DNA of 44,590 nucleotides, taken from assembly GCA_022446825.1 (NCBI GenBank), contig JAKVBY010000029.1:1-44590 (forward strand), read 5' to 3'. The DNA is from Pirellulaceae bacterium (lineage in GTDB: Bacteria > Planctomycetota > Planctomycetia > Pirellulales > Pirellulaceae). Positions 42,567-44,590 of this stretch are shown in pieces; positions within the stretch are counted from its first letter, which is position 1; every line of letters begins with the position of its first letter. Made by a program: the position numbers and the translations under genes. The notes beneath the pieces are model-generated. The model made no database searches, was not told where the DNA came from, and saw only the letters and a list, made by a program, of their open reading frames with translations.

Positions 42567-43871
42567 TTATGAGTCGTTGATAACCGTCAGCGCCTTGTCA
42601 GAAATATCTTTACGACACCAAGCACCTTTCCAACGAATTTTTTTCACCCCACTATAAGCCCGTAATTTGGCGGCGGATACAGAATCCCCCAGCGCCGTTA
42701 CACCGAGTACTCGCCCCCCATTGGTGACAACATCACCTTCGCTGCTGGCCGTACCAGCATGGAAAACTTTGACGTCCTTCAATTCTCCTGCCTCGGAAAG
42801 CCCTCGAATCACGCGCCCTTTTTCGTAACTTCCAGGATACCCTTCACTCGCCATGACCACACAAACGGCCGGTCGTTCATCCCATTCGGGGAGTGTGATT
42901 TCATCTAACTTTCCATCCACCGTACCTTCCAAAAGATCCATCACGTCACTTTTCAGACGCATCAGCAGTGGCTGGCATTCGGGGTCACCAAAACGAACAT
43001 TGAACTCCAGAACTTTGGGACCTTGGTTCGTGAGCATAAGACCCGCGTAGAGAACTCCACGAAAGGGATTTCGCGAGCGTTTCAGAGCGTGGACTGTAGA
43101 TACTAGAACATGCTCTTCAACCTCGCGAAGTGTCGCCGGAGAAACTAAGGGAGTCGGACAATAAGCACCCATGCCACCGGTGTTCGGTCCCGTATCACCA
43201 TCGTAAGCCGGTTTGTGATCTTGAGCGGGCGGCAGCGTCACAATCGACCGGCCATCGGTGAAGGCTAAAACGCTCGCCTCCTGGCCGTCTAAACGCTCTT
43301 CAATGACAAGTCGACTTCCTGCCGCTCCAAATTCACGGTCGCGGGCAATGCGTTCGATCGCCAACAGCACTTCCTCTCGCCGTGAACATACGATCACCCC
43401 TTTTCCAGCAGCCAATCCATCGGCCTTCACAACGACCGGCACGTCCTCCACATCCGACGGGTACCGTTCCTCAATGTGGTGCCGCGCACTATCGGCATCA
43501 TCGAAAACTCGGTAATCAGCTGTCGGAATGTCAGCGTGACGCAGCAAATTCTTACAGAACACTTTGCTACCTTCGAGTTGCGCTGCAGCTTTCGAGGGTC
43601 CAAAAACTCGCAAACCCTCCGCAGCAAAAACATCGGTAATCCCTTCGGCCAATGGTATTTCTGGCCCCACAACGGTCAACAAAATTTCATTTTGCTTGGC
43701 AAATTTAATCAGTTCCCCAAAGTCAGTAGCAGGAATTGCAACATTTTCGGCATCTATCTCGGTTCCCGCGTTGCCAGGCGCCACGAAGACACGATCCACA
43801 CGTGAACTTTGCGCAATTTTCCAACTCAAGGCATGCTCACGGCCACCGTTGCCAACCACCAAAACATTCAT
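42567..43871 (-). CDS. purD: Phosphoribosylamine–glycine ligase (GAR synthetase)
   Basis: A 434-aa cytoplasmic enzyme of purine synthesis that joins 5-phosphoribosylamine and glycine using ATP. The ATG at 43871 has GGGAGA 5 bases upstream and gives the standard MNVLVVGNGGREHAL start; a longer frame to 43916 is not needed. ATP-grasp features are VVVKADGLAAGKGV, AYDGDTGPNTGGMGAY and VLEFNVRFGDPECQ. Length and motif order are normal for PurD. It is transcribed alone, divergent from the gene at the right edge. Pairing with the nearby pyrB gene gives a small nucleotide-synthesis neighbourhood rather than an operon. Confidence 0.97.
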   Translation of the reverse strand: MNVLVVGNGGREHALSWKIAQSSRVDRVFVAPGNAGTEIDAENVAIPATDFGELIKFAKQNEILLTVVGPEIPLAEGITDVFAAEGLRVFGPSKAAAQLEGSKVFCKNLLRHADIPTADYRVFDDADSARHHIEERYPSDVEDVPVVVKADGLAAGKGVIVCSRREEVLLAIERIARDREFGAAGSRLVIEERLDGQEASVLAFTDGRSIVTLPPAQDHKPAYDGDTGPNTGGMGAYCPTPLVSPATLREVEEHVLVSTVHALKRSRNPFRGVLYAGLMLTNQGPKVLEFNVRFGDPECQPLLMRLKSDVMDLLEGTVDGKLDEITLPEWDERPAVCVVMASEGYPGSYEKGRVIRGLSEAGELKDVKVFHAGTASSEGDVVTNGGRVLGVTALGDSVSAAKLRAYSGVKKIRWKGAWCRKDISDKALTVINDS

Positions 43872-44253
43872 CTTTTTCTCCCGAGTTCCCCTTAGAAACG
43901 CCGTCCTTGCCGTCACATTTCACTACCAGCCCAGTCGTTTTGTACACCCTCGCGTTACGTTAACTTATGCCAAGCCAAGTGGCGACGATCCAGGGAGGAT
44001 TTTAGGACAGGCGCCGTCCGGTGGATAGACACAGGAAAAACCAGTTGGGCGGGATGACGTACAGCGCGTATTCGGTTAGATTTCTGACATGAAGTTTGTC
44101 GATAGGCAAGCCATTCCCCCCCGGCTCCAATTTGGCGGTCCAAAGCCAGGCGTACGTATCGCTCAATAGGCTGGAATGACGAAGACGCGATCAGCAGACC
44201 TCTAAAACGCCAAAAAAGGCCCGCAATAAGTCAAGGTGGTAGGCAAAGGGATC
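43872..44253. other. purD upstream region, no gene seen
   Basis: About 380 bases upstream of purD before the promoter-like elements of the right-edge gene. It must hold the purD promoter on the minus strand. No PurR-type box, riboswitch or open frame with a ribosome-binding site was recognised. Confidence 0.45.
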
Positions 44254-44283
44254 TTGACAAAATGGGGCTTGGCACGCGAGAAT
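44254..44283 (+). promoter_or_regulatory. Candidate sigma-70-type promoter
   Basis: TTGACA (44254–44259) matches the −35 consensus exactly. GAGAAT (44278–44283) is 18 bases downstream and matches four of six −10 positions. Transcription would begin near 44290, just before the palindrome at 44293, and leave a leader of about 165 bases before the ATG at 44457. Confidence 0.35.
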
Positions 44284-44292
44284 TGGGGATAC

Positions 44293-44312
44293 CTTGTGAA
44301 AAAAATCACAAG
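44293..44312. promoter_or_regulatory. CRP/FNR-superfamily-like operator
   Basis: The palindrome CCTTGTGA-A6-TCACAAGG (44292–44313) contains TGTGA-N6-TCACA, an exact match to the CRP consensus, with symmetric flanks extended to nine bases per arm. It lies about 145 bases upstream of the ATG at 44457 and about 420 bases from the purD start. In RNA the same bases could form a hairpin with an A6 loop. Its position just after the candidate promoter would favour repression from that promoter, or activation of another one further downstream. Confidence 0.55.
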
Positions 44313-44456
44313 GTCTGTCTGATTAATTTAAATCATTGCATGCAAATAGTTTACAGCTCAGACAGTAGCCCCCTTTATTTACGGAAAGACAAGCTCAAAG
44401 GCAGTCCCAGCTTCTGTATTTGTCTTGGATGAACGCTGTGTTTGACGGGAAAAGAT

Positions 44457-44590
44457 ATGGCTGACAAAGACTCGATGTCGGTCGACGAAATAATTGCAGC
44501 TTGCCGTGCTGCCGATGGCGGAGCGGAGGATGGTTCCGTCCCCGCTTCGGATGTGGGTGCTGGCGCGGACGCGGCGGGCGCAACGGATAC
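44457..44590 (+). CDS. N-terminus of an Ala/Gly/Asp-rich protein, cut by window edge
   Basis: Forty-four codons are open to the right edge from an ATG with GGGA 6 bases upstream. The sequence MADKDSMSVDEIIAACRAAD is followed by a low-complexity Gly/Ala/Asp/Glu stretch. GC content rises sharply here, as expected for an Ala/Gly-rich linker. The MSVDEIIAACR motif reminds me of the long Ala-rich N-termini of some planctomycete respiratory iron–sulfur (Rieske-type) proteins, but this is memory of a family style, not proof. The catalytic part lies outside the window. Confidence 0.55.
   Translation, partial: MADKDSMSVDEIIAACRAADGGAEDGSVPASDVGAGADAAGATD

Follow-up and report, generated by a model that had tools for sequence, protein, structure and literature searches.

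We found that the palindrome at 44293-44312, which lies close to the right edge of the window (the whole 44,590-base stretch of DNA analysed here), is very probably the operator through which Rex, the NADH/NAD+-sensing repressor, acts on the promoter of a cytochrome bc operon, as judged from sequence comparison. The window is the beginning of contig C76 (130,566 bases in all), up to base 44,590, and the operon was read beyond its edge. Named orthologues put the organism among Pirellulales-like Planctomycetota, and its own row stands in the cytochrome b tree described below. Read directly from the window sequence, 44293-44312 is CTTGTGAAAAAAATCACAAG, and the dyad as a whole spans 44291-44314 with arms of 9 bases each, ACCTTGTGA-N6-TCACAAGGT. 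It agrees with the Rex binding consensus TTGTGAA-N4-TTCACAA, as given in the available excerpts of PMC2883068 and PMC5355995, at 13 of the 14 specified positions. The features discussed below are collected in Table 1.

Table 1. Coordinates of the candidate operator, its surroundings in the window and related palindromes in another genome
Feature	Position	Strand	Description
purD-like reading frame, divergent neighbour	42567..43916	-	Putatively purD-like, named from its N-terminus; not thought to be part of the system
Predicted sigma-70 promoter	44254..44283	+	TTGACA 44254-44259, 18-base spacer, GAGAAT 44278-44283
Operator	44291..44314	.	24-bp dyad ACCTTGTGA-AAAAAA-TCACAAGGT; candidate Rex operator
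Operator core TTGTGA-N6-TCACAA	44294-44311		1 mismatch to TTGTGAAN4TTCACAA
Predicted 5' untranslated leader	44315..44456	+	Placed by position, between operator and start codon
Rieske iron-sulphur protein gene (start)	44457..44590 in window	+	First gene of cytochrome bc operon; PF00355, E 8.7e-10
CRISPR-leader palindromes of genome G020	2001-2018 of each of L274, L275, L276 and L277		Pirellulaceae genome

The original prediction described an exact TGTGA-N6-TCACA palindrome with symmetric flanks, and this was borne out. The pattern matched exactly only once within the window, at 44295-44310; the other matches (8/9) carried two mismatches and lay below the shuffle level. The longer TTGTGA-N6-TCACAA occurred once in the window and in 0/100 shuffles. 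Genome-wide, a lone exact 18-mer is not decisive, because this genome (94% complete) holds two copies and the chance control, the reversed pattern counted in the same relatives' genomes, occurs 0.20 times per genome in Rex-positive and 0.31 times in Rex-negative relatives. The second exact match of this genome (C89:37765) showed no promoter context and is seemingly inside a short open frame whose end is CDGSH-like; it was set aside as a regulatory site since it is probably a coding coincidence. The window site is meaningful because it is conserved at orthologous loci.

The gene that begins downstream of the palindrome encodes a Rieske protein and ends past the window, at contig position 45641 (stop codon to 45644). 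It is followed by a cytochrome b/b6-type gene (PF00033, E 2.3e-40), a third gene for a subunit with a cytochrome b C-terminal domain (PF00032, E 1.1e-4) and a fourth for a multihaem cytochrome c protein of 1742 residues. The Rieske, cytochrome b-type and multihaem c genes together make up a bc-type (complex III-type) operon; the earlier guess that the gene at 44457 belongs to a respiratory complex was thus correct, with the Rieske gene heading the operon. At its N-terminus the Rieske protein (P0002) is extended by a long Ala/Pro/Lys-rich stretch in which a short MSVxEMLAAARG-like motif occurs three times (residues 7, 68 and 111); the first copy is N-terminal and conserved across relatives.

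The predicted promoter in the window matches 10 of 12 consensus bases. Judging from its -10 box, transcription is expected to start near 44290, and the operator would cover about +1 to +24, directly downstream of the -10 element. Among 40 non-redundant operator-aligned bc rows, exact TTGACA was present in 36, and in 35, the window row included, it lay 38-44 bases before the operator; elsewhere within 150 bases of the operator TTGACA was found in none of the 40 rows. The aligned bc rows also have an A/T-rich -10 box about 16 bases 5' of the operator, and TANNNT occurred in 17/40 rows in its best three-offset window and in at most 5 elsewhere outside the site. A fixed -10 hexamer, scored by average, was not distinctive; the TANNNT and TTGACA counts were. 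The operator overlaps the promoter or transcription start, as is looked for in a Rex operator, the promoter being predicted and conserved and the start deduced from the -10 box. This placement, on the predicted start and immediately 3' of a conserved promoter, would suit a repressor.

Conservation of the site was assessed at 80 named orthologous bc loci, 73 of which were scored, the other 7 having too little upstream DNA. Scanning by distance from cytochrome b, we found a site with at most two mismatches in 47/73 loci (26 with at most one), against 1/73 for the reversed pattern; this supports the earlier view that the operator-like palindrome did not arise by chance. In the cytochrome b tree, Schlesneria, Planctomyces and Planctomicrobium fall in a clade of 22 rows (bootstrap 100); 18 of these rows lacked the site, 1 had it with two mismatches and 3 were unscorable. 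Outside this Schlesneria-type clade, and with our own locus included, the site was present in 47 of the 55 scorable rows and absent from 8. The bc sites have a flavour of their own, T[T/C]GTGAAAAA-N2-TCAC[A/G]A, and generally, as in the window, are one base off the strict Rex consensus. Their outer positions co-vary (TTGTGA/TCACAA in 15/42 and TCGTGA/TCACGA in 12/42 non-redundant rows), which is expected for a symmetric dimer and to which shared descent contributes too. At one locus (L199), two identical perfect operators stand in tandem upstream of the bc operon, 44 bases apart.

The pattern TTGTGA-N6-TCACAA was present in 47/60 relatives. Orthologues were found by protein, independently of the site. 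For nuo and nqr, each protein used as a query was taken from a locus that itself has a site, which puts one such locus in each set. Upstream of nuoB/nuoA, 27/30 loci carried a site with no more than one mismatch (21 exact; 30 fetched of 32 orthologues at ≥76% identity). Upstream of nqrA, 26/28 loci carried a site (15 exact, 9 at one mismatch and 2 at two). The sequence is TTGTGAA-N4-TTCACAA or a single base off it in most of the nuo and nqr sites. In this genome, nqrA has TTGTGAAAAATTTCACAG (one mismatch) about 340 bp 5' of its start codon, a second site near a promoter of the kind proposed as a check in the original prediction. In a few genomes ATP synthase genes had a site nearby (PF00119 in L005, L268, L279 and L281), and one (L269) had a site before a menaquinone gene pair; of the further sites that we inspected, several fell beside unrelated genes or within genes, in line with the chance rate. 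Because relatives share the operator before nuo/nqr, bc and some ATP synthase genes, the window site appears to be one member of a respiratory Rex regulon, which we read as order-wide.

Two other settings of the operator were observed. In five genomes (L020, L025, L266, L278 and L280) it was near the gene of a small two-CBS-domain protein, a possible further Rex target. In G020, the leaders of four CRISPR arrays each carry one and the same palindrome, a perfect one of the Rex type (TTGTGAAACTTTTCACAA or its complement). In three of the four the first repeat is about 70 bases away, and redox or CRP-type control of these leaders is a possibility.

We found that this genome encodes a Rex protein (P0008, contig C67) with both Rex Pfam domains. 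Its best PDB match is a Rex, 3ikv (E 1.3e-45), which we take to be that of Thermus aquaticus. For DNA contacts, P0008 was aligned to Thermotoga maritima Rex as described in the available excerpts of PMC8836258, which also report a crystal of that Rex with an operator containing ATCACAA. P0008 keeps 8 of the 12 contacts (Arg12, Ser33, Gln46, Arg48, Lys49, Gly58, Gly61 and Tyr64), including Arg48 and Lys49, the key major-groove residues of T. maritima Rex in the same excerpts, and differs at 4 (Glu34, Lys43, Ser52 and Arg60). The NAD-site positions Asn92, Ala96 and Tyr100 align to Asn, Ala and Tyr in P0008; operator and a Rex with DNA-reading and NAD-binding parts are thus found in the same genome. 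As to self-regulation of rex, no site with at most one mismatch was present in 30 rex loci of relatives (about 1.5 kb on each side), and a scan of 12 longer rex loci to two mismatches gave one-mismatch sites in L070 and L071 and two-mismatch sites in L066 and L074. In 13 genomes (G017, G131-G140, G143 and G144) a CRP-type HTH is encoded on the same strand as rex, some 1.3-1.5 kb past the rex start, pointing to a rex-crp pair in some of the family; the G017 frame with this HTH contains a cNMP domain as well. No CRP-type HTH adjoins rex in the window's genome.

We then compared the distribution of the site with that of both proteins in 296 genomes of the class, 295 of them at least 96% complete plus our own. 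A Rex match was found in 173 and the exact site in 189. Closely related genomes enter these counts many times, as they do the following: the 173 Rex-positive genomes had 281 sites vs 34 for the control (1.62 vs 0.20 per genome), and the 123 Rex-negative genomes 60 vs 38 (0.49 vs 0.31). With a strong CRP-type HTH (E ≤1e-8) site density was 1.51 in Rex-positive genomes, and without one 1.73; the corresponding densities in Rex-negative genomes were 0.52 and 0.45. Family f25, which we infer to be the Schlesneria-type clade of the tree, lacks Rex in 92/93 genomes and is near background in those 92 (43 sites vs 37 control); a strong CRP-type HTH is present in 53/93. The site excess depends on Rex and not on the CRP-type HTH, with some exceptions: 12 Rex-negative genomes outside f25 keep exact sites, such sites are missing from 5 genomes in families f8 and f17 that do match Rex, and G014 has no Rex match yet carries sites at bc and nuo.

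The enterobacterial CRP operator has the core TGTGA-N6-TCACA, which the window contains exactly, and the original prediction assigned the site to a CRP/FNR-like regulator. Such a regulator, activating or repressing the bc operon, might be expected from the PF00027 proteins of 57/60 relatives and from the CRP-family gene directly after rex in some of them, and with this genome just 94% complete its gene could have been missed; we nevertheless consider this unlikely. PF00027 (cNMP-binding) had 0 matches in this genome vs 10/14 control genomes matching, and HTH_Crp_2 (PF13545) gave a single weak match (E 2.8e-4). The original prediction had held that a genome without a CRP-family protein would speak against it, and for CRP, within a 94%-complete genome, this is what we found. 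CRP control is unsupported because no CRP-family protein was detected, while a standard Rex is encoded. Two genomes without PF00027 keep sites (G003 at bc and nuo, G025 at nuo), Rex-positive genomes with a strong CRP-type HTH have no higher site density than those without, and Rex-negative genomes with a strong HTH have 0.52 sites vs 0.32 for the control. CRP usually activates from binding positions upstream of the start; here the operator is over the predicted start. A CRP/FNR operator was therefore rejected as the main reading, so that the palindrome and the respiratory gene of the original prediction stand and its regulator does not.

It is also conceivable that Rex shares its sites with a second regulator, for example the CRP-family protein encoded beside rex in some relatives, or that a further regulator with Rex-like specificity uses them. 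Some genomes in which no Rex was detected retain sites and the bc sites show their own sequence flavour, but undetected Rex may reflect assembly loss and the overall dependence on Rex is strong, and we regard such sharing as very unlikely. The probability that the palindrome is fortuitous, or a terminator or attenuator hairpin, seems to us practically nil. Exact matches of the reversed control do arise at the per-genome rate given above, but conservation at the same place in 47/73 orthologous loci vs 1/73 contradicts chance, as do the 0/100 shuffles, and a terminator scan gave no terminator-like match at the operator (its match falls elsewhere).

Together, these results point to Rex. Binding, repression and release by NADH are known from the Rex family and are carried over to this operon. 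At low NADH, Rex would sit over the start site and hold the bc operon down; as NADH rises, Rex would bind it and move its DNA-binding domains away from the operator, and the electron-transport genes would be made. These planctomycetes thus probably tune their respiratory chain to redox state via Rex rather than a CRP-type regulator. More tentatively, it is possible, though we would not yet expect it, that a single NADH-responsive repressor controls the greater part of the oxidative chain together throughout the Pirellulales: NADH entry through Nuo or Nqr, the bc complex and ATP synthase, plus menaquinone synthesis in places. In some lineages Rex would then act with a CRP-family protein whose gene immediately follows rex, and its operator would have moved into CRISPR leaders. 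If true, NADH/NAD+ would serve as the master signal that sets respiratory capacity.

Little, to our knowledge, has been described of how genes are regulated in Planctomycetota, and the present reading gives a named regulator, a signal, a precise candidate operator and promoter, and a conserved respiratory target set. It adds the cytochrome bc complex to the likely Rex targets and corrects a natural misreading, in that a perfect CRP-type palindrome is best explained by Rex in this clade. Rex and its operator are already known; we did not find a planctomycete Rex regulon, or the bc complex as a target, in print. Among the matches listed, which cover non-subscription papers, none concerned Rex in Planctomycetota or the bc complex as a Rex target; a comparative Rex study reportedly published by Ravcheev et al. 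in 2012 may mention them.

The enterobacterial CRP operator has its core in common with the window site, and is set apart by the lack of a detected CRP-family protein here, by the repressor-like position and by a distribution that tracks Rex. The Staphylococcus aureus Rex operator TTGTGAAW4TTCACAA, as given in excerpts of PMC2883068, shares with the window site 13 of 14 specified positions and an A/T-only centre; its targets in these excerpts are anaerobic and fermentative genes, whereas here they would be oxidative respiratory complexes. In Streptomyces avermitilis, according to the available excerpts of PMC5355995, the Rex targets listed are cyd, hem, hppA and ndh2, while in the present case sites are found at nqr and at the cytochrome bc operon; we found no match to qcr or cytochrome bc1 in that paper's text. 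There rex-hem is autoregulated (PMC5355995, in excerpt), whereas 30 rex loci of relatives, in a different phylum, have no site with at most one mismatch. What Streptomyces shares with the present case, on the same excerpts (PMC5355995), is an operator of the TTGTGAAN4TTCACAA type that overlaps the promoter or transcription start, together with target operons for NADH dehydrogenase and ATP synthase. The footprinted S. avermitilis operators (PMC5355995, in excerpt) include TTGTGATACGGTTCACGA and TTGTGACCTGCTTCACAT, which leave the consensus at the half-site position where the window site does too, and the cydA1 footprint, from -3 to +25, is similar to the predicted position of the window operator.
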